Source of the DNA: Solobacterium sp.
GTDB taxonomy: Bacteria > Bacillota_I > Bacilli_A > Erysipelotrichales > Erysipelotrichaceae
Assembly (NCBI GenBank): GCA_024696355.1
Contig: JAILGV010000013.1
Location: 1 to 64,000, forward strand
Length of the DNA stretch: 64,000 nt
Direction: 5' to 3'
Each line of letters begins with the position of its first letter. The first letter of the stretch is position 1. The notes below the pieces were generated by a model, which was given only the letters and a program-made list of their open reading frames with translations, was not told where the DNA came from and did not search any database. Positions 10,645 through 23,482 of this stretch are shown in pieces. Both the position numbers and the translations under genes were made by a program.

Positions 10645-10684
10645 ACACTGCGAAGCAGATGCTTCTGATTTGATGGAGGTTATT

Positions 10685-11260
10685 ATGGCAACTAAGAAAA
10701 AGACAGTGGCTGCTGAAGAAGTTAAAGAAGTAAAAGAAACTAAAGCAGCCGCCAAGAAAACAACAGCCGCTAAGACAGCAAAGAAAACTGCTGCTGCAGA
10801 CAATACAAAAGAAACAGCTGAAAAAGCTGTAAAGAAGACAGCTGCAAAGAAGACAGCTGAGAAGAAAACTGCAGAAAAGAAGACAGCAGAAAAGAAGACA
10901 GCAGAAAAGAAAGCTCCGGCCAAGAAGGCACCCGCTAAGAAAGCTGCAAAGAAAGCAGAAGAAAAGCCGGCAGTCGCAAAGAAGGACGTTCAGGAATACA
11001 AAGACGTCATCAACTGGAAGAAGTGGGAAGCACACAACATGAACTGGCTTTATATTGAAGTTAATGCCGGTGATCTGATGAACGAGCTTGAGGCAGGAGC
11101 TGACAACATTGAAACAGCCGCCGATGCAGTTCTGGCAATGATGCTGGAAGGCGATCACTTCATTGTCGAGCCTGAAAACAGGAAGTCCGCAGATCTGACA
11201 GTCAGATACTACTGCGACAACCTGAACAGCGACAGAAGGTCCTACTGGGACGTTCAGTAA
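10685..11260 (+). CDS. Histone H1-like lysine/alanine-rich protein with a conserved-looking C-terminal domain
   Basis: 191 aa. Residues 1-100 are almost only Lys, Ala, Thr and Glu, with AEKKT repeats, as in bacterial H1-like proteins (HctA/Hc1 or the AlgP tail); such tails bind nucleic acid non-specifically. Residues about 100-191 form a distinct acidic, folded-looking domain (NWKKWEAHNMNWLYIEVNAGDL ... GDHFIVEP ... SADLTVRYYCDN). Its AGDL/GD/LTVRY spacing faintly recalls small AGDLHR-type domains; that is speculative. The start at 10685 is set by GGAGG 5 bases upstream. Own promoter and terminator. Probably a nucleoid or RNA-associated protein. Similar tails occur on the amylosucrase and TopA in this window. 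Confidence 0.7.
   Translation: MATKKKTVAAEEVKEVKETKAAAKKTTAAKTAKKTAAADNTKETAEKAVKKTAAKKTAEKKTAEKKTAEKKTAEKKAPAKKAPAKKAAKKAEEKPAVAKKDVQEYKDVINWKKWEAHNMNWLYIEVNAGDLMNELEAGADNIETAADAVLAMMLEGDHFIVEPENRKSADLTVRYYCDNLNSDRRSYWDVQ
10846..10914 (+). repeat. 15-bp tandem repeat encoding AEKKT
   Basis: Seen: four to five near-identical copies of a 15-base unit (gcagaaaagaagaca) inside the lysine-rich region. Copy number is likely to vary between strains by slippage; that is inference. Confidence 0.75.
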
Positions 11261-11841: not shown

Positions 11842-11880
11842 ACATTCAACATCTCATGATTCATTGAAGAGGAAATGCTT

Positions 11881-12711
11881 ATGCCACTGAAAGTAGGATA
11901 CCAGGGAAACCACGGGACATTCAGCGAAATTGCCGTGATGCGCTATTTTGAAGGACAGGATATTGAACAGGTCAGCTTTACGAATTTTCCGGATATTATG
12001 AAAAGCTGTGAGTCCGGAGAACTTGATTATGCGCTGATTCCTGTTGAGAATACGACTACCGGAATGATTTCCCGGACATATGATCTTTTTAAGAATCATA
12101 AGGTCATGGCTGTCGGGGAGATCATTGTCAGGATCAGACAGGACCTGATAGTTCTGCCCGGCACAAAACCTGAGGAGATCCGTGAGGTATACAGTCATCC
12201 GGAGGCCCTGTCACAGTGTCAGGATTTTTTCCGGAGCCATCCGAATATCCGGGCGGTGGCTTATCAGGATACAGCCAGAAGTGTCGAATATGTCCGACAG
12301 TGCGGTGATCATTCAAAAGCTGCGCTCGGTTCGGCACGTGCTTCGGAGTATTACCGGATGGAATCGCTTCTTTCCGGAGTGCAGGACTCCGATACCAATA
12401 TGACACGGTTTCTGTGCATTGCCGCAAAGGAGGAGATTCCGGATGATGCCGACAAAGTCAGCATCATGCTTGTGCTGAATCATGAGCCGGGCGCACTTTA
12501 TCATGCAATGGGGATCCTTGCCTACAATGACATCAACATTGTAAAGCTGGAATCAAGACCGATTCCGGATGAGCCGTTCCATTACTGTTTCTATCTTGAT
12601 TTTGCCGGCAGTCTGAACGATCCCTTTGTCAGAACCGCATTATTGAAACTGAAGGAACATTCCATAGAAACCAGGGTTCTGGGCTGCTACAAAGCGGCAC
12701 AGGTGGACTGA
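11881..12711 (+). CDS. pheA: Prephenate dehydratase
   Basis: Converts prephenate to phenylpyruvate, the committed step to phenylalanine. 276 aa: catalytic PDT domain (residues about 3-180) with YQGNHGTFSE at the start, the active-site DTNMTRF segment, and a C-terminal ACT domain (about 190-270). The ACT domain shows the Phe-binding GALY and ESRP motifs, so feedback inhibition by Phe is expected. A second ATG 6 bases upstream (11875) is too close to the GAGG ribosome site; 11881 is better spaced. It precedes the aro operon leader but lies outside it, so the Phe branch may be expressed separately. Confidence 0.92.
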   Translation: MPLKVGYQGNHGTFSEIAVMRYFEGQDIEQVSFTNFPDIMKSCESGELDYALIPVENTTTGMISRTYDLFKNHKVMAVGEIIVRIRQDLIVLPGTKPEEIREVYSHPEALSQCQDFFRSHPNIRAVAYQDTARSVEYVRQCGDHSKAALGSARASEYYRMESLLSGVQDSDTNMTRFLCIAAKEEIPDDADKVSIMLVLNHEPGALYHAMGILAYNDINIVKLESRPIPDEPFHYCFYLDFAGSLNDPFVRTALLKLKEHSIETRVLGCYKAAQVD

Positions 12712-12735
12712 AAAGCGCGGCCGGAAAGCGGTTTA

Positions 12736-12764
12736 TTGTTATTTGCAGGCGAATGATCTATACT
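12736..12764 (+). promoter_or_regulatory. Predicted promoter of the aro operon leader
   Basis: TTGTTA, a 17-base spacer, then TATACT. The predicted +1 (about 12771) is 2 bases before the ATG of the leader peptide. Confidence 0.6.
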
Positions 12765-12772
12765 ATGGACAT

Positions 12773-12814
12773 ATGAAGAAAACAGTTCTGTTTTACTTTT
12801 ATTACTTTAGATGA
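12773..12814 (+). CDS. Phe/Tyr-rich attenuator leader peptide of the aro operon
   Basis: Thirteen-residue ORF MKKTVLFYFYYFR followed by TGA; six of the last seven residues are Phe or Tyr. It lies between a promoter and a terminator hairpin in front of aroB. No ribosome site precedes it, and the predicted transcript begins about 2 bases upstream of its ATG. Established principle: ribosome stalling at codons for the regulated amino acid controls downstream RNA folding, as in the trp and pheA leaders of enteric bacteria. Here the codon content predicts sensing of charged tRNA-Phe and tRNA-Tyr. Confidence 0.8.
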   Translation: MKKTVLFYFYYFR

Positions 12815-12818
12815 TTCC

Positions 12819-12913
12819 GGGCATACTGCGATAGTGCCCGCTTTGAAATGTCCGGCATTATCTACTGGTGAAGACACTGCAGCCACATGGATGATGCCAT
12901 GCGGCTTTTATTT
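12819..12913 (+). promoter_or_regulatory. Transcription attenuator of the aro operon
   Basis: Seen by pairing: helix 0:1, 12819-12824 with 12834-12839; helix 1:2, 12830-12838 with 12854-12862 (9 pairs, one G-U); helix 2:3, 12854-12862 with 12890-12898 (9 pairs, one G-U); terminator 3:4, 12881-12890 with 12897-12906 (one A-C mismatch), followed by TTTATTT. Neighbouring helices exclude one another. Inferred logic: a ribosome finishing the leader peptide covers segment 0, so 1:2 and the terminator form. A ribosome stalled on Phe/Tyr codons leaves 0:1 free, so 2:3 forms and transcription continues. Confidence 0.7.
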
Positions 12914-12926
12914 AGGAGGCGGCGAT

Positions 12927-13931
12927 ATGGTGATTCAGGTACATACAAGGCAGAGAGACTACGATATTATTCTGGAGCGGGGAGTTCTTTCACGCGCTTC
13001 ACAGGTGATTGCAAATCCCGGCCATCCGTTTCTCATCAGTGATGACGGTGTTCCCGAAGTGTGGAGGAACATGCTGAAAAACCAGTATCCGGACAGCAGG
13101 ATGTATGTTTTCAGACAGGGAGAAGGCTCCAAGTGCATGGAAACATATCAGAGTATTCTGGCAGCCATGCTGGCGGAACATGTATCAAGAAATGATACGG
13201 TAATTGCCCTGGGCGGCGGTGTTGTCGGTGATCTTGCCGGTTTCTGCGCTGCCACGTATATGAGGGGCATCCGCTATGTCAATATTCCCACAACATCCCT
13301 GTCGCAGATTGACTCATCCATCGGCGGGAAAACAGCTGTTGACATGTGCGGCATCAAAAACTGTGTAGGCGCATTCTGGCAGCCGTCACAGGTTCTGATC
13401 GATCCGGATACGCTCTCCACACTGGATGACAGACAGCTTCATGCCGGTCTTGCGGAGGCTGTGAAAGCAGGACTGATCCGTGATCCCGGACTGTTCAGAA
13501 TCTTTGAGCAGGATGATTATTTGGAGCACATTGACGAAATCATCGAACGAAGCCTGATCGTGAAGAAACAGATTGTGGAAAATGACGAAAGAGAATCCGG
13601 GGAAAGAAAGCTGCTGAACTTCGGTCATACATACGGACACGCATACGAAAGTTTTTATGAACTCGGTGCATATCTGCACGGGGAGTGCGTGGCAGCCGGG
13701 ATGATGACGGTACTGAAGAACAAAGATATAAAGGAAAGGCTCGGAAAGGTTCTGGCAGGGCTGCATCTTCCTGTCGGATTTGATGCGGACAGGGAGAAGA
13801 TCTGTGAACTGATCAGAAGCGACAAGAAAGCAGATCATGATACCGTAACAATCGTGCAGGTCGATGAAATCGGCAGGGGACATCTGGAAAGCTGGAGTCA
13901 GGATGATATCCGGAAAGGGATCGGATTATGA
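12927..13931 (+). CDS. aroB: 3-dehydroquinate synthase
   Basis: Second step of the shikimate pathway: cyclises DAHP to 3-dehydroquinate with NAD and a divalent metal. 334 aa. Seen: the NAD-binding GGGVVGDLAGFCAATYMRG region (about residues 93-112), PTTSLSQIDSSIGGKTAVD, and the metal ligands Glu in LAEAVKAGLI, His in NFGHTYGHA and His in LHGECVA. The frame extends upstream to 12834, but that part overlaps the attenuator. AGGAGG at 12914-12919 fixes the start at 12927. First structural gene of the attenuated operon; its stop overlaps the aroC start. Confidence 0.95.
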   Translation: MVIQVHTRQRDYDIILERGVLSRASQVIANPGHPFLISDDGVPEVWRNMLKNQYPDSRMYVFRQGEGSKCMETYQSILAAMLAEHVSRNDTVIALGGGVVGDLAGFCAATYMRGIRYVNIPTTSLSQIDSSIGGKTAVDMCGIKNCVGAFWQPSQVLIDPDTLSTLDDRQLHAGLAEAVKAGLIRDPGLFRIFEQDDYLEHIDEIIERSLIVKKQIVENDERESGERKLLNFGHTYGHAYESFYELGAYLHGECVAAGMMTVLKNKDIKERLGKVLAGLHLPVGFDADREKICELIRSDKKADHDTVTIVQVDEIGRGHLESWSQDDIRKGIGL

Positions 13932-15031
13932 AGAATACAATCGGAAACGAAATAACAATCACGCTGTTCGGAGAGTCTCACGGTCCTGCCATCGGATGCG
14001 TCCTCGACGGTCTTCCCTCCGGTTTTGCCGTGGATATGGAGCAGCTGGCACGGGATATGGACAAAAGAAAGGCCTTCGGTGCGGTGTCTACCGGACGCAG
14101 GGAGGCGGATCAGGTGGAAATCCTGTCCGGAATCAAAGACGGACTGACCGAAGGAACACCTGTTGCGATGCTGATCAGGAATACAAATGTCAGACGGAAT
14201 GACTATGATGCCATCCGGTATCTGGCCAGGCCGTCCCATGCGGACTATACGGCGGAAATCCGCTACAGGGGATTTCAGGACGCTTCCGGCGGCGGACACT
14301 TCTCCGGCAGGCTGACGGCACCGCTGACAGCCGCAGGTTCCGTTCTGCGGCAGATGCTTTTTGCAAAGGGGATCCGGATCGGCACGCATATTATCAATCT
14401 GCACGGCATTGAAGATGATGCATTTCAGGAGGAAAGTCTTGCAGAAACCGTTGATCTGCTGAACAGCAGACAGTTCCCGGCAATCAGTGAAAAAGCGGCG
14501 GAAAAGATGATAAAGGAAATCGAAGCTGCTGCGCGGAATCACGATTCCGTGGGAGGCATCCTGGAAACTGTGATCATCGGACTGGAGCCGGGAATCGGAG
14601 AACCCGAATTTGACTCGGTTGAAAGCAGACTGGCACAGGCAATGTTTTCTGTTCCCGCCGTCAAGGGGATCGAATTCGGCGCAGGCTTCGGATTTGCGGA
14701 TATGTACGGAAGTCAGGCAAATGACAGGTTTACGGTGGCTGACGGTCGGATCAGAACGGTTACGAACAACAACGGCGGCATTAACGGCGGCATTTCCAAC
14801 GGCATGCCTGTCCTGTTCAGAACCGCAGTCAAGCCGACGCCTTCCATCGGCCTGAAACAGGAAACCGTCAATTTCAAAACAAAAGAAAATTCCGTAATAG
14901 AAACCGGCGGAAGACATGATCCGGCTGTCATTCACAGAGCAAGGGCAGTTGTGGATGCGATGACGGCTTTTGTGATCGCGGATATGCTGGCGAGTCATCA
15001 CGGAAGGCAGTGGCTCGGAGAAAAAATATGA
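13928..15031 (+). CDS. aroC: Chorismate synthase
   Basis: Last common step: EPSP to chorismate, needing reduced FMN. 367 aa, normal length. Seen: the N-terminal GESHGPAIGCVLDGLPSG signature, the central RPSHADYT and ASGGGHFSGR signature, and C-terminal RHDPAVIHRA. It overlaps aroB (ATGA) and the aroE/K fusion (ATGA), giving tight translational coupling. Encoding aroC second, before the enzymes that act upstream of it, is common in Bacillota aro operons. Confidence 0.96.
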   Translation: MKNTIGNEITITLFGESHGPAIGCVLDGLPSGFAVDMEQLARDMDKRKAFGAVSTGRREADQVEILSGIKDGLTEGTPVAMLIRNTNVRRNDYDAIRYLARPSHADYTAEIRYRGFQDASGGGHFSGRLTAPLTAAGSVLRQMLFAKGIRIGTHIINLHGIEDDAFQEESLAETVDLLNSRQFPAISEKAAEKMIKEIEAAARNHDSVGGILETVIIGLEPGIGEPEFDSVESRLAQAMFSVPAVKGIEFGAGFGFADMYGSQANDRFTVADGRIRTVTNNNGGINGGISNGMPVLFRTAVKPTPSIGLKQETVNFKTKENSVIETGGRHDPAVIHRARAVVDAMTAFVIADMLASHHGRQWLGEKI

Positions 15032-16266
15032 AACTGGGACTGATCGGATATCCTCTCGGTCACAGCTGGTCCCCGGAAATACACCGGTTTTTCCTGGACT
15101 GCAGCTATGAACTGTGGCCGCTGAAGGAAGAGGAACTGGACAGGTTCTTTGCAGAAAGAGACTTTGACGGAATCAATGTGACAATTCCGTACAAGAAGAC
15201 AGTCATCAGATATCTTGATGAAATTGATGAGACGGCAGAACGGATCGGGGCCGTCAATACGATCGTCAACAGAAACGGAAAACTGACCGGATACAATACG
15301 GACTGGTCGGCGTTTGCGGCAATGCTGGAAACAAACAGGTTTGACACTTCCGGCCGGGCGGTAATTCTGGGCAGCGGGGGAGCCTCAAAAGCGGTTCAGG
15401 CAGCACTGCAGCGTTTCGGCACCGCATATGATGTTGCCAGCACATCCGGCTCAGGCACCGTGACATATGATGAGATGTATCAGAGACAGGCAGAATACAG
15501 CCTCCTGATCAACTGCACGCCTGTCGGGATGTATCCGGAGGATGATGCGCTTCCAGCGGATCCGGGAAAATTTTCCGGACTGAAGGCAGTGGCTGACGTC
15601 GTGGCAAATCCGCTGCGCACCGCACTGTGCTTTGAAGCGGAACAGAACGGGATTCCTTCGGCGGGAGGATTTGAAATGCTGGTACGGCAGGCACTTGAAG
15701 CTGACAGGCTTTTCACCGGAAGGGACATGGATGAGAAACTGGCTGATGCCTGCATGAATTACCTGTACCGGAAGCGCCGCAGCATTGTCCTTACAGGCAT
15801 GCCCACTTCGGGAAAAAGCACTGCTGCACGGATGATTGCGGAAATCACCGGACGCCGCCTGGTTGAAATGGATGAAGTGATCTCTGACAGACTCGGAACG
15901 ACCATTGCGGAATGCTTTGCCGCCAGGGGGGAGGCTTACTTCAGAAGTCTGGAGGCTGAACTCTGCAGGGAACTGAAAAACGGCGGGAAAACCGTTGTTT
16001 CCTGCGGCGGCGGTGTGATCAAGAACAGGGAAAACATGCGTTATCTTTCCGAAAACGGAATTATTGTATGGCTTGACCGCAGTCCGGACCTGCTGTTTGC
16101 TTCCTCGGACAGACCGCTTTCCTCAGACCGGCAGGCGGTTATGAGACTGTACCGGGAACGCAGGGAATTATATGAAAGATATTCAGACATCCGTGTAAGC
16201 AATGACGGTGACATCCGTCAGACGGTCAGCGGAATACTGAAAGCTGCAGGAGAAAACAGATTATGA
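15028..16266 (+). CDS. Shikimate dehydrogenase-shikimate kinase fusion
   Basis: One polypeptide of 412 aa carrying two successive pathway steps. Residues 1-250 are AroE (GHSWSP shikimate-binding serines, NVTIPYK with the catalytic Lys, YNTDW, the GSGGASKAV nucleotide-binding turn). Residues about 252-412 are AroK (Walker A GMPTSGKST, then CGGGVI; LID region with SSDRPLSS). AroE reduces 3-dehydroshikimate with NADPH and AroK phosphorylates shikimate, so channelling is possible. The start at 15028 overlaps the aroC stop; an earlier GTG at 15010 is less likely. Such fusions occur in some Firmicutes. No 3-dehydroquinate dehydratase is present in this cluster. Confidence 0.93.
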   Translation: MKLGLIGYPLGHSWSPEIHRFFLDCSYELWPLKEEELDRFFAERDFDGINVTIPYKKTVIRYLDEIDETAERIGAVNTIVNRNGKLTGYNTDWSAFAAMLETNRFDTSGRAVILGSGGASKAVQAALQRFGTAYDVASTSGSGTVTYDEMYQRQAEYSLLINCTPVGMYPEDDALPADPGKFSGLKAVADVVANPLRTALCFEAEQNGIPSAGGFEMLVRQALEADRLFTGRDMDEKLADACMNYLYRKRRSIVLTGMPTSGKSTAARMIAEITGRRLVEMDEVISDRLGTTIAECFAARGEAYFRSLEAELCRELKNGGKTVVSCGGGVIKNRENMRYLSENGIIVWLDRSPDLLFASSDRPLSSDRQAVMRLYRERRELYERYSDIRVSNDGDIRQTVSGILKAAGENRL

Positions 16267-17279
16267 TTATTACATTGAAAAAAGATACGCCGCAGAAGGA
16301 AGTTGAGCGGCTGATCAGCCAGTTTGAAGGATACGGCCTGAGAGTCAATATCATCCACGGTCAGAACTGGAATGTTTTCGGACTTGTCGGTGATACGACG
16401 CACCTGAGTGAGCGGGATATCCTGGCTGATGAATGGGTGACGAATGTACAGCGCGTACAGGCTCCCTACAAGCTGACGAACCGCATGTTCCATCCTGAGG
16501 ACACCGTTGTAGATGTCGGCGGAATTAAAATCGGCGCCGGACAGCCGATTGCATTAATTGCCGGACCGTGTGCCGTGGAGGGCGATGAAGAGCTCTGCCG
16601 GATCGCTGAGGATGTGAAAAAAGCCGGCGCAACAATGCTCAGGGGCGGTGCATACAAGCCCAGAACAAGCCCGTACAGCTTCCAGGGACTCGGTACGAAA
16701 GGAATCATGTATCTGGATCATGCCAGACAGCTGACCGGGATGCCGGTTGTTTCCGAACTGATGAGCGAAGATAAAATTGATGAATTTGAAAAATATGTTG
16801 ATCTTGTGCAGATCGGTGCAAGAAACATGCAGAATTACAATCTGCTTAAGGCAGTAGGAAAAATGAAGAAGCCGGTTCTTCTGAAAAGAGGCATGTCCGC
16901 CACAATCGAAGAGTGGATTATGTCGGCCGAATACATCATTGCCAACGGAAATCCCAACGTCATCTTCTGTGAAAGGGGCATCCGCACATTCGAAAAATAC
17001 ACGCGGAATACGCTTGATATCGCTGTTATTCCCATTATCAAGGAAAAGACGCATCTGCCGATTATCATAGACCCGAGCCATGCCACGGGAAACTGGAGCC
17101 TCGTCAAGCCGGTTGCCCTGGCAGCTGTCGCGGCGGGGGCTGACGGTCTGATCATCGAATGCCACAATGATCCGGCCAAAGCATGGTCTGACGGCATGCA
17201 GTCACTGAAGCCTGATAATTTTGCGGATCTTGTCAGAGATGCCGCGAAGGTTGCAGAGGCAGTCGGGAGATCACTCTGA
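16263..17279 (+). CDS. aroF: 3-deoxy-7-phosphoheptulonate synthase with N-terminal regulatory domain
   Basis: Entry step of the pathway: condenses PEP and erythrose 4-phosphate to DAHP. 338 aa of the type I-beta class. An N-terminal ferredoxin-like domain (residues 1-about 70) precedes the TIM-barrel catalytic domain. In Thermotoga-type enzymes that extra domain gives Tyr/Phe feedback inhibition; the same here is inference. Seen: AGPCAVE, LRGGAYKPRTSPYSFQG, KRGMSATIEEWIM and DPSHATG metal/substrate motifs. Overlaps the fusion gene by 4 bases. AroA starts one base after its stop. Confidence 0.95.
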   Translation: MIITLKKDTPQKEVERLISQFEGYGLRVNIIHGQNWNVFGLVGDTTHLSERDILADEWVTNVQRVQAPYKLTNRMFHPEDTVVDVGGIKIGAGQPIALIAGPCAVEGDEELCRIAEDVKKAGATMLRGGAYKPRTSPYSFQGLGTKGIMYLDHARQLTGMPVVSELMSEDKIDEFEKYVDLVQIGARNMQNYNLLKAVGKMKKPVLLKRGMSATIEEWIMSAEYIIANGNPNVIFCERGIRTFEKYTRNTLDIAVIPIIKEKTHLPIIIDPSHATGNWSLVKPVALAAVAAGADGLIIECHNDPAKAWSDGMQSLKPDNFADLVRDAAKVAEAVGRSL

Positions 17280-17280
17280 T

Positions 17281-18546
17281 ATGAAAGTCCGTATCACACC
17301 GGGGTTCCTGCGGGAATCATCCGTGCGCATTCCGTCCAGCAAGTCCCTGTCGCACAGAGCGCTGATTACAGCCGCTCTGGCTGACGGCACATCCTGTATA
17401 ACGGATCTTGTTGAGAATAATGATACGGAGGCAACAAAGAACTGTCTTGAGAAGCTGGGTGCCCGTTTTGAAACGAACGGAAATGTGACAGCCGTGCACG
17501 GCATCGGCAGCCCTGACGGCTATGACGGTTCCGTCATTGACTGCGGAGAAAGCGGAAGCACACTGCGCTTTCTGATTCCGCTGTTTTCACTGACGGGAAA
17601 GGAAGCTGTATTCACCGGTCACGGAAAGCTGATGGAGAGGCCGCAGAACGTATACCGCGAACTGTTTGAAAAGCAGGGACTGATATTCCGGCAGGAGGGC
17701 AGTTTTCTGAAGGTGAAAGGGGCGCTGAGACCCGGCAGGTACGCAGTGCAGGGTTCCGTTTCTTCGCAGTTTATCAGCGGACTGCTTTTTGCCCTTCCGC
17801 TGCTCAGGGAAGATTCCCTGATTGCCGTAATTCCGCCTTATGAATCGAGATCGTATGTATCACTTACGGAAGATGCCCTTGCCAGAGCGGGGATCGTGAC
17901 TGAGGAAAACGGCAGTGAGATCACGGTCAGAGGCCGGCAGGTTTACACGCCTTTCTGCACACAGATTGAAGGGGATGATTCCCAGGCCGCCTTTTTTGCC
18001 TGCCTGGCAATGATCGGACAGAAAAAAATACATGTGAAGGGCATGTCCCGTTTCAGCAGGCAGGGAGACCGTCAGATTCTTTCAATCATCAGAAATGCCG
18101 GTGGAACCGTTGAAGAAAAGGAAGACGGATATCTGTTTGCGCCGCATGAACTGAAAGCATTCACAGCGGATCTGGCAGACTGTCCGGATCTTGGCCCGGT
18201 ACTGTTTGCACTGGCAGCCCGGTGCAGGGGAACAAGCGTATTCCTAAATACGCAGAGGCTGCGCATCAAGGAAAGCGACAGAATTGCCTGCATGGAAGAG
18301 GAACTGCGTAAAATGGGCTGTCTGATTGAGTCAGATGATTCAACTGTGACGGTTACCGGTGTGACATCTGTCCGCGGTGCCGTGGTTGACAGCCATAACG
18401 ACCACAGAATTGCCATGGCTCTGGCAGTTCTTGCCGAAAGCGCAGACAGTCCCGTTGTAATAACAAACAGTGAGGCTGTCAGAAAAAGCTATCCTGCATT
18501 CTTTGAAGATATGGCATCGCTGGGTGTCAAGGTGGAAATGATATGA
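17281..18546 (+). CDS. aroA: 3-phosphoshikimate 1-carboxyvinyltransferase (EPSP synthase)
   Basis: Adds enolpyruvyl from PEP to shikimate 3-phosphate. 421 aa. Seen: IPSSKSLSHRALI at the N-terminus (substrate Lys/Ser/Arg), CGESGSTLRFLIP (PEP loop), VSSQFISGLL, and ESDRIACMEEELRKMG with the C-terminal DNHR-type segment SHNDHRIAM. A longer frame starts at 17221 inside aroF; the ATG at 17281, one base after the aroF stop, is the natural start. The loop is CGESGSTLRF rather than GNAGTAMR; the residue at the usual glyphosate-Gly position therefore looks like that of class II type enzymes. Confidence 0.95.
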   Translation: MKVRITPGFLRESSVRIPSSKSLSHRALITAALADGTSCITDLVENNDTEATKNCLEKLGARFETNGNVTAVHGIGSPDGYDGSVIDCGESGSTLRFLIPLFSLTGKEAVFTGHGKLMERPQNVYRELFEKQGLIFRQEGSFLKVKGALRPGRYAVQGSVSSQFISGLLFALPLLREDSLIAVIPPYESRSYVSLTEDALARAGIVTEENGSEITVRGRQVYTPFCTQIEGDDSQAAFFACLAMIGQKKIHVKGMSRFSRQGDRQILSIIRNAGGTVEEKEDGYLFAPHELKAFTADLADCPDLGPVLFALAARCRGTSVFLNTQRLRIKESDRIACMEEELRKMGCLIESDDSTVTVTGVTSVRGAVVDSHNDHRIAMALAVLAESADSPVVITNSEAVRKSYPAFFEDMASLGVKVEMI

Positions 18547-19388
18547 TTACAAAAGATACATCAATCGGCGTCATCGGCATGGGACTGCTTGGCGGCAGTT
18601 ATCTGAAGGGATTTAAAAAGGCGGGATACTGCCGTCTGACAGGCGTGGACAGGGATGAAAAAGCAGTGGCTTACGCACTGGAAAGCGGACTGGCGGAAAA
18701 AGCGTCGTCTGATCCTTCCGTAATTGCGGACTGTGACATCGTGATTTCAGCACTGTATCCGCATGTCTTTGTGAAATGGATTGAAGAGAATCAGAAGTAT
18801 CTGAAGGCGGGCTGCCTGCTTACGGACGTGACCGGCGTCAAGCGGTCGGTGATTGATGAAATCAGCAGGATTCTGCGCAGTGACGTTGAGTTTATTGCAT
18901 GTCATCCGATGGCCGGCAGGGAATATAAAGGAATCCGTTTTGCGGATGAAACGCGTTTTGAAAATGCCAACTATATCATCGTGCCGACCGGAAAGAATAC
19001 GGAAGAGGCTCTGCAGACAGCGTCAGAAATTGCCGGAATACTGAAATTCGGAAATATTGCCGTACTTTCACCGGAAGAGCATGACCGCATGATCGGCTTT
19101 GTTTCCCAGCTGACACATGTGATCGCAGTGTCTCTGATGAATATGAGCGATAATTCCAGTCTGGCTGAGTATACGGGCGATTCATTCCGGGACCTGACCA
19201 GGATCGCCAGAATCAACGAGGATCTGTGGCCGGAGCTGTTTGTTCTGAACAAAGATTACCTGGTCGAGCAGATTGACGGCTTCGTCAGGGAGATGAAGCA
19301 GTTCCGGGATATGATAGAAAATGAGGATCTCGAAGGAATGAAGCAGAAGCTGATCCTTTCAACGGAGCGGAGAAAAGCATTTGACTGA
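18543..19388 (+). CDS. tyrA: Prephenate dehydrogenase
   Basis: Oxidative decarboxylation of prephenate to 4-hydroxyphenylpyruvate for tyrosine. 281 aa. Seen: Rossmann start IGVIGMGLLGGSYLKGF, TDVTGVK, CHPMAGREYKGI with the catalytic His region, and SQLTHVIAVSL. It lacks a C-terminal ACT domain, so direct feedback control is not evident; the operon attenuator may serve instead. Last gene of the aro operon, overlapping aroA by 4 bases (ATGA). Confidence 0.93.
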   Translation: MITKDTSIGVIGMGLLGGSYLKGFKKAGYCRLTGVDRDEKAVAYALESGLAEKASSDPSVIADCDIVISALYPHVFVKWIEENQKYLKAGCLLTDVTGVKRSVIDEISRILRSDVEFIACHPMAGREYKGIRFADETRFENANYIIVPTGKNTEEALQTASEIAGILKFGNIAVLSPEEHDRMIGFVSQLTHVIAVSLMNMSDNSSLAEYTGDSFRDLTRIARINEDLWPELFVLNKDYLVEQIDGFVREMKQFRDMIENEDLEGMKQKLILSTERRKAFD

Positions 19389-21472: not shown

Positions 21473-23482
21473 ATGATTAACGAAAACTGGGAAAAAGAAT
21501 TCAAGGAACGACTTCAGCAGCATTACGATGAAATGCACTGGCTGTACAACGAGATTTACCACGACGAGCACGCATTTGATTACTTCTGTGAAATGCTGCA
21601 CCGGAGTTATTCCGAAAGAAATGAGCTCCTGAAGGAATGGGATGAGGCGAGAGTGCTCGTTCCCGACTGGTACAAGGGGAATGAAATGCTCGGCATGCTG
21701 ATGTATGTCAACTGCTTTGCGAAGACACTGAACGGCGTCCGTTCACATATGTCGTATATCAAGGAATGCGGAGTCAACTATCTGCATCTGATGCCGCTGC
21801 TTGAATCTCCCGAAGGAAGAAGTGACGGCGGTTATGCGGTAAGCAATTTCCGCAAGGTTCAGCCCGAACTGGGAACCATGGAGGATCTGTACGGTCTTGC
21901 ACAGGAATGCCACACAAACGGCATTTCCGTATGTCTTGACTTTGTCATGAATCACACCAGTGAAGATCATGAATGGGCAGTCCGGGCAAGAAGAGGCGAG
22001 AAGGAATATCAGGACAGATACTTCTTCTTTGACAACTGGGATATTCCTAATCAGTTTGAAAGAACTGTCCCGCAGGTATTCCCTACAACAGCTCCCGGCA
22101 ACTTCACATGGAACGAAGAAGCACAGAAGGTTGTCATGACAACGTTCTATCCGTATCAGTGGGACCTGAACTACCGCAATCCGACAGTGTTCAATGACAT
22201 GACTGCGGATATGCTCAATCTCTGCAACCACGGTGTTGATATTATCAGACTTGATGCAACGCCTTATATCTGGAAGACACTCGGAACCAACTGCCGCAAT
22301 CTTCCGGAAGTTCACACTCTGGTCAGAATCATGCATATTGCCAGCCAGATTGTTGCCCCGGGCACGCTGCTTCTCGGTGAAGTGGTCATGGAGCCGGATA
22401 AAGTAGTTCCTTACTTCGGAACAGTGGACAAGCCTGAATGCCACATGCTCTACAACGTAACAACCATGGCCAGCACATGGCATACGGTTGCCACCAGAGA
22501 TGTCAGACTTCTGAAGCATCAGCTGGAAACAGTGTTTGCACTGCCGAAGCAGTATACATTCCTGAACTATCTGAGATGTCATGATGATATCGGCTGGGGT
22601 CTTGACTATGATTACCTGCAGCAGTTCGGCATGGAACAGATTCCGCACAAGAAGTATCTGAATGATTTCCTGACAGGAAAACTGTGGGGATCTGATTCAA
22701 GAGGCGAACTCTACAATGATGATCCGCGTCTGAAAGATGCAAGACTCTGCGGCACCACTGCCTCATTGTCCGGAATTGAAGCTGCATTATATGAAAACAA
22801 TCCCTACAAGATCAAGGCAGGCGTTGACCTGGATGTCATGCTGCATGCATTCCTGCTGACGCAGAGCGGCATTCCTGTTCTGTATTCCGGTGATGAGATC
22901 GGACAGCTGAATGACTACGGATACCATAACAATCCGTTCAAGGCCGATGACAGCCGCTATCTCCACAGAGGCGACTTCCAGTGGGACAAGGCAGAACTCA
23001 GACATGATCCGTCAACCGTACAGGGACAGCTGTTCCAGCAGATAAAGAAACTGGAGCATATCAGAAGAGAACATGAATTGTTTGACTCCAAGGCTGATAC
23101 CTGGACAATTGAAACATACAATGACCACGTTCTCGGCATCGGCAGATATTATGCCGGTGAAAAGCTGATCGCACTGTTCAATTTCTCCGAATTTGATCAG
23201 ACGGCATGGATCCACGAGAATGAAGATTATATTGACCTGATGACAGGAAACAAAGTATTAGGCGAAACACCCGTGATTCCTGCCCACAGCTTTATCTGGA
23301 TGATGCATTCTTATAATCCGCCCAGTGCCCTGCGTGCACTGCCCGTTGAAAAGCCGGCAAAAAAAGCAGTGAAGAAGACTGCGGAAAAGAAAGCGGTAAA
23401 GAAACCTGCAGAGAAGAAGACTGCAAAAAAGACCGGCGAAAAGAAAGCAGCCGTCAAAGCGGCAAAAAAGGTGAAGGAATGA
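21473..23482 (+). CDS. Amylosucrase-type GH13 subfamily 4 glucosyltransferase with histone-like tail
   Basis: Probably makes an alpha-glucan and fructose from sucrose, or hydrolyses sucrose. 669 aa. Seen: LDFVMNHTSEDHEW (region I), GVDIIRLDAT (nucleophile Asp), LLLGEVVM (acid/base Glu), LRCHDDIGWGL (stabiliser Asp), plus the subfamily-4 hallmarks QVFPTTAPGNFTW and an amylosucrase-like C-terminal domain. There is no signal peptide, so it is cytosolic. Residues about 626-669 are a Lys/Ala/Thr-rich H1-like tail not expected in this family. It is preceded by fructokinase (16 bases) and overlaps a HAD phosphatase. The alternative, sucrose phosphorylase (GH13_18), is excluded by these motifs. Confidence 0.85.
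   Translation: MINENWEKEFKERLQQHYDEMHWLYNEIYHDEHAFDYFCEMLHRSYSERNELLKEWDEARVLVPDWYKGNEMLGMLMYVNCFAKTLNGVRSHMSYIKECGVNYLHLMPLLESPEGRSDGGYAVSNFRKVQPELGTMEDLYGLAQECHTNGISVCLDFVMNHTSEDHEWAVRARRGEKEYQDRYFFFDNWDIPNQFERTVPQVFPTTAPGNFTWNEEAQKVVMTTFYPYQWDLNYRNPTVFNDMTADMLNLCNHGVDIIRLDATPYIWKTLGTNCRNLPEVHTLVRIMHIASQIVAPGTLLLGEVVMEPDKVVPYFGTVDKPECHMLYNVTTMASTWHTVATRDVRLLKHQLETVFALPKQYTFLNYLRCHDDIGWGLDYDYLQQFGMEQIPHKKYLNDFLTGKLWGSDSRGELYNDDPRLKDARLCGTTASLSGIEAALYENNPYKIKAGVDLDVMLHAFLLTQSGIPVLYSGDEIGQLNDYGYHNNPFKADDSRYLHRGDFQWDKAELRHDPSTVQGQLFQQIKKLEHIRREHELFDSKADTWTIETYNDHVLGIGRYYAGEKLIALFNFSEFDQTAWIHENEDYIDLMTGNKVLGETPVIPAHSFIWMMHSYNPPSALRALPVEKPAKKAVKKTAEKKAVKKPAEKKTAKKTGEKKAAVKAAKKVKE

Follow-up and report, generated by a model that had tools for sequence, protein, structure and literature searches.

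A probable leader-peptide attenuator rich in phenylalanine and tyrosine codons upstream of the aro operon in Erysipelotrichaceae

The interval between pheA and aroB in the Solobacterium sp. window (the whole stretch of DNA analysed, 64,000 nucleotides) contains an element that, with a probability of about 0.86, is a ribosome-mediated transcription attenuator sensing charged tRNA-Phe and tRNA-Tyr and controlling aroB-aroC-aroEK-aroF-aroA-tyrA, in which one RNA strand, designated C, pairs with A, B or D to give three states. A Phe/Tyr-sensing attenuator of the aro operon had already been proposed in a preliminary description of this locus, and covariation and folding with ribosome-masked bases support that proposal. 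The element appears to be an undescribed family of leader-peptide attenuators, well supported and conserved, and its unusual feature is the single strand with three alternative partners.

In the proposed mechanism, strand C would be able to pair with A, at the end of the leader ORF, with B, or with D. With no ribosome on the leader, A:C would form, leaving D free for the terminator, and transcription would stop. A ribosome stalled on a Phe or Tyr codon near the leader end would cover A while hairpin 0:1 holds B, and the C:D antiterminator would then allow transcription to go on. A ribosome at the stop codon would cover both A and strand 0, so that free B would capture C and the terminator would form. 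We infer the ribosome footprint, its timing relative to the polymerase, the actual termination or read-through, and the tRNAs sensed.

The locus and its leader ORF

Coordinates of the features are collected in Table 1. The promoter and the 13-codon Phe/Tyr leader are present where they had been placed by the preliminary description. Transcription is predicted from the promoter position to start at about 12771-12773, and the Phe/Tyr control codons occupy 12791-12808. Among 760 ATG-started ORFs of 8-25 codons, counted in the 64 kb window only, the leader ORF is the sole one with at least five Phe/Tyr among its last eight residues. The core of strand C is GGCATTATCT (12854-12863). The terminator and its U-run are also confirmed, the stem pairing 12881-12884 and 12886-12890 with 12897-12901 and 12903-12906 around one A.C mismatch.

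Table 1. Features of the attenuator region and neighbouring genes, in window coordinates.
Feature	Position	Strand	Evidence
pheA, prephenate dehydratase, 5' of attenuator region	11875-12711		
Sigma-70-type promoter TTGTTA-17-TATACT	12736-12764	+	Consensus scan
Leader peptide ORF MKKTVLFYFYYFR, then stop	12773-12814	+	Phe/Tyr run kept in 42 distinct homologues
Strand A: last control codons, stop and next bases	12802-12824	+	Minimum-energy fold, covariation
Strand 0: 5' arm of hairpin 0:1	12818-12824	+	Pair counts, folding
Strand B (segment 1 of the preliminary description); predicted partner of C with ribosome at stop, off state	12830-12838	+	Covariation, folding
Hairpin 0:1, 3' arm	12834-12840	+	Pair counts, folding
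Strand C (segment 2 of the preliminary description plus extension); contested by A, B and D	12848-12871	+	
Intrinsic terminator, then UUUUAUUU	12881-12913	+	Stem 12881-12890/12897-12906, one mismatch
Strand D: antiterminator with C, otherwise terminator loop and start of terminator 3' arm	12888-12898	+	Covariation, folding
aroB ribosome-binding site AGGAGG, just beyond terminator stem	12914-12919	+	Sequence
aroB, 3-dehydroquinate synthase, first gene of attenuated unit	12927-13931	+	Pfam PF01761, PF24621
aroC, fused aroE-aroK, aroF (DAHP synthase), aroA, tyrA: remainder of unit	13928-19388	+	Pfam

The ORFs from aroB to tyrA overlap or nearly adjoin, and by their Pfam assignments they lead to chorismate and on to Tyr. 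The Phe-specific gene pheA lies 5' of the attenuator's own promoter, hence outside the attenuated unit, despite the Phe codons in the leader. Elsewhere in the window, 10670-11260 encodes a small Lys/Ala-rich protein with histone-H1-like repeats and no Pfam match, and an alpha-amylase-family protein (21473-23482) has a similar Lys/Ala-rich C-terminal tail.

Homologues and their leader peptides

Loci were collected by seeking aroB in 60 genomes and in public contigs, where the named matches belong to Erysipelotrichaceae plus one member of the Erysipelotrichales. Of 273 family genomes searched with a covariance model built from a 19-sequence alignment, 55 give a match to the element at E up to 0.01. 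About 49 matches, from about 10 genera of Erysipelotrichaceae, are stronger, and the downstream gene in these is aroB in all but two: L045, where the contig ends, and L074 (genus g58), where the element copy precedes aroF, followed by tyrA. The weak family matches L084-L089 (E about 1e-3 to 5e-3) have no aro gene downstream and were treated as chance. The model finds no second copy in the window's own genome and none in 43 other members of the order, and a class-wide sample of 395 genomes adds a single match outside the family, weak and short (E 9e-4).

Six genomes of the same genus (L002, L003, L004, L005, L007 and L014) run from pheA directly into aroB without the attenuator, and neither a T-box nor a convincing Phe/Tyr leader is found 2-6 kb upstream in them. 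In a more distant member of the Erysipelotrichales (L034, 2840-3000) a leader MRKNAYFYYYE precedes aroB and is followed by different sequence. The end of this leader, UCCUGUUAG, can form a helix with CUAAUAGGA, which a terminator follows, and the locus is possibly a diverged version of the element.

Many same-genus loci carry a Phe/Tyr-rich ORF at the same position (MKTFRSYYYYYVG, MNSRYSAYYYFTYR, MNTKASLFYFYFR, MISNMYYYFYR and others). In 42 distinct leaders, Phe and Tyr make up 4-8 of the last eight residues and 40% of all residues, and Trp is absent from every one. From -2 to -7 most residues are Phe or Tyr, either of which may stand at any position of the run, and the N-termini have diverged, with varied residues from -8 on and differing lengths. 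The preliminary description had made its reading depend on homologous loci keeping the Phe/Tyr codons, and these leaders keep them. Most leaders close with an Arg-stop spelled AGATAG or AGATAA. In L071, L072 and L079 the stop falls inside the AGATA motif and Arg is lost, yet AGATA is still kept, and the motif is therefore conserved as RNA.

This pattern bears on a TnaC-like alternative, in which the growing leader peptide would act as the sensor of free Phe or Tyr and halt its own ribosome, in place of a ribosome waiting for charged tRNA. The leader is indeed conserved near its C-terminus, with F-R-stop in most homologues, as an arrest peptide might be, but the RNA motif AGATA, retained even when Arg is lost, accounts for that conservation; moreover, Phe and Tyr swap at every position of the run, the residues before the run are unconserved, and lengths vary. 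A TnaC-like arrest is thus very improbable. An interchangeable Phe/Tyr run behind a varied N-terminus is what a ribosome counting codons, rather than a specific arrest peptide, would be predicted to leave.

The start codon of the window leader lies 8 nt past the -10 box and has no clear Shine-Dalgarno sequence, and the leader is probably leaderless or nearly so, judged from the predicted transcription start. The gap from the -10 box to the start codon is 6-9 bases in 12 of 42 sequences and 12 bases in one, most of these having no Shine-Dalgarno match; in most of the remaining relatives the gap is 15-24 bases, and many of these possess a Shine-Dalgarno sequence. The predicted starts suggest that about a third of relatives translate a leaderless ORF.

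Covariation and folding of the alternative helices

The RNA from 12771 to 12913 folds at -45.3 kcal/mol (z = -4.24 against dinucleotide shuffles). The four helices of the preliminary description are real: hairpin 0:1, reported at 12819-12824/12834-12839, is one pair longer (12818-12824 with 12834-12840); helix 1:2, here B:C, pairs 12830-12838 with 12854-12862 exactly as reported; helix 2:3, here C:D, pairs 12854-12862 with 12890-12898 and extends about two pairs further; and the fourth is the terminator. A fifth helix had been missed. This helix, A:C, gives the window RNA its minimum-energy fold and joins 12802-12824 to 12848-12871 in three segments (12802-12806/12867-12871, 12808-12815/12857-12864 and 12817-12824/12848-12855).

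Covariation was assessed by a strand-swap test comparing the stability of native partners with that of partners exchanged between genomes in 5,000 permutations. Native pairing exceeds swapped pairing with permutation z values of -6.6 for A:C, -9.4 for 0:1, -7.8 for B:C, -9.4 for C:D and -12.9 for the terminator, values that overstate significance in that the sequences are related and not independent, although several lineages are involved. For each of the five helices, 0 of 5,000 permutations are as good as native. Among pairings that were not proposed, A:B, B:D and 0:D show no excess in the same test, and A:D and 0:C show a weak one. In an alignment of 50 matches, both partners vary in 16 of the 22 pairs of A:C, 0:1 and the terminator; five such pairs occur in each of C:D and B:C, helices outside the covariance model, and the pair counts collapse in slid controls. 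Compensatory changes, on which the preliminary description had also made its reading depend, are thus present across relatives, for example GGUGUUAUC:GAUAACACC (L077) and GGCUGAUA:UAUUAGCC (L080) in C:D and AGAUAUUGCC:GGCAAUAUCU (L057) in B:C.

These comparisons leave a virtually nil chance that the element is merely a pheA terminator beside an accidental AT-rich ORF. Simple terminator-like sites are frequent in the region (13 found, 8 expected), which would favour such an accident, but only one such ORF occurs in 64 kb, and the co-varying structure recurs at the same gene across about 10 genera; on the comparative data, chance is already refuted.

Ribosome states were represented by barring all bases from pairing up to the position 11 nt beyond where the A-site codon begins. 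Direct folds of the window RNA give A:C plus terminator for the full length, 0:1 plus C:D from 12818, and B:C plus terminator from 12827. The parts, their conservation, the co-variation of every helix and these three folds are computational observations. Under this masking scheme, the full-length window RNA lacks C:D both without a ribosome, where A:C and the terminator form instead, and with the ribosome at the stop, where B:C and the terminator form. In the full-length ensemble, C:D beats the terminator for just three ribosome positions, control codons 10, 11 and 12, and for stalls on the first three control codons equilibrium predicts termination. The claims that a ribosome reaching the stop hides strand 0, so that helix 1:2 and the terminator form, and that a stall on Phe/Tyr codons leaves 0:1 and 2:3, are both supported by masked folding and by covariation.

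The computed position of the ribosome thus shifts the window fold in the right direction, and the effect is weaker at equilibrium in relatives. There, the full-length terminator is mostly favoured in all ribosome states, with A:C on average the dominant full-length fold; since equilibrium favours the terminator in every state, antitermination in many relatives would have to be kinetic. When the transcript of a relative ends just past C, strand C is mostly paired with A if no ribosome is present and with B if the ribosome is at the stop. When it ends just after D, C:D is favoured under stalling, and often also when no ribosome is present or when one has reached the stop. In L018 and L022 the equivalent of A:C, a CUUUAGAUA-like strand paired with UAUCU and the bases that follow, closes a junction round 0:1, and the terminator forms separately. 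Single-state equilibrium folding was rejected as a sole test: in many relatives its result varies with the length of the transcript, so that timing must govern what really happens.

The scheme of the preliminary description, in which only 0:1, 1:2, 2:3 and the terminator matter, A:C is a by-product and untranslated RNA is read through, gains from the finding that, in transcripts ending just after D, most relatives favour C:D even with no ribosome. Strand A also overlaps codons, so that part of its conservation could be coding. Nevertheless, A:C is the minimum-energy fold in the window and on average dominant in relatives, A and C co-vary (GGAUA:UAUCC in L065/L066, CGGAU:AUCCG in L067), and the A motif is retained in L071, L072 and L079, where it no longer codes. 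The scheme without A:C is accordingly unlikely. Its label of an inverted-order logic distinct from that of trp is overstated: in A:C the antiterminator strand binds the control codons and stop, so that here too a codon-overlapping strand comes under the stalled ribosome, as it does in trp and his attenuators. Strand A, made up of the end of the control-codon run and the stop, lies where the strand masked by a stalled ribosome is usually found.

Within the three-partner attenuator, the predicted assignments of the stop and stalled states are the firmer, and that of the state without a ribosome is the least certain. C:D is often favoured at intermediate length without a ribosome, and the size of the untranslated off state is consequently uncertain. 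A fuller version, to which we give somewhat less than an even chance, holds that both the untranslated and the finished leader terminate and only the stall reads through, that leaderless translation of the leader peptide drives the switch in some members, the window among them, and that at the aro genes the element occupies the position that the T-box has in sister families.

Comparison with known systems

Neither the T-box model (RF00230) nor any other Rfam leader family matches the window, and none matches 12700-13000 at E up to 10, so that a known RNA family was rejected as the identity of the element; the preliminary description had named a T-box or other motif as what might instead explain the region. 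The idea that a T-box, riboswitch or protein-binding leader is at work and the ORF is coincidental could draw on the 18 T-boxes found elsewhere in the window's genome with the same model and on the T-boxes that stand before the aro operon in other families within this order, sisters of the Erysipelotrichaceae (L025, L026). It is set against the absence of any Rfam match and against the Phe/Tyr ORF ending at the same place in nearly all homologues, and it is extremely improbable. T-box leaders resemble the aro element in sensing tRNA charging and in controlling the same aro genes in sister families; unlike it, they bind tRNA directly and have no leader ORF.

The aro element would add an apparently new family of leader-peptide attenuators to the Bacillota, in which tRNA is usually sensed by T-boxes. 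At the aro operon, the leader-peptide switch occupies the place of the T-box in sister families, giving a natural comparison of two unrelated tRNA-charging sensors on the same operon, and the three-partner strand yields a clear, easily testable prediction for the untranslated state.

Several leaderless attenuator leader peptides are known, namely trpL of Sinorhizobium meliloti (PMC7298713) and LeuL and TrpL of Streptomyces lividans (PMC8079986). The window is predicted to share with them a leader ORF at the 5' end of the transcript, but unlike these alphaproteobacterial and actinobacterial leaders its leaderless state is predicted only from promoter spacing. A search of the literature on aromatic leader-peptide attenuators, with subscription journals mostly outside its range, gave no report of this aro element. 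The uORFC-13-1 motif, a Phe-leader candidate located 5' of aroF in Acholeplasma, is described as having at least one Phe codon (PMC8632094). As described, it shares with the aro element a short Phe-codon ORF next to a terminator before a shikimate-pathway gene; it is known only from Acholeplasma and unassigned environmental sequences, and the passage describing it gives no antiterminator logic.

The aro element has the features by which amino-acid leader-peptide attenuators are recognised: a run of product codons in a short ORF, control codons kept where the rest has diverged, and a mutually exclusive terminator and antiterminator with compensatory changes. With the proteobacterial trp, his, phe and ilv attenuators it shares a short ORF rich in product codons, an antiterminator competing with a terminator, and a codon-overlapping strand covered by the stalled ribosome. 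Its two-hairpin alternation resembles multi-hairpin his-type attenuators. It differs from the proteobacterial systems in belonging to another phylum, in mixing Phe and Tyr in one leader, and in having a strand C with three competing partners, where A:C encloses 0:1 in relatives. The his operon attenuator exemplifies the proteobacterial type, and His-leader attenuators of the his operon have also been predicted in Erysipelotrichales, with in silico terminator and antiterminator (PMC9413887). These share with the aro element the order, a leader of product codons and an in silico terminator and antiterminator; the window leader has no His-codon run and its operon is aro, not his.
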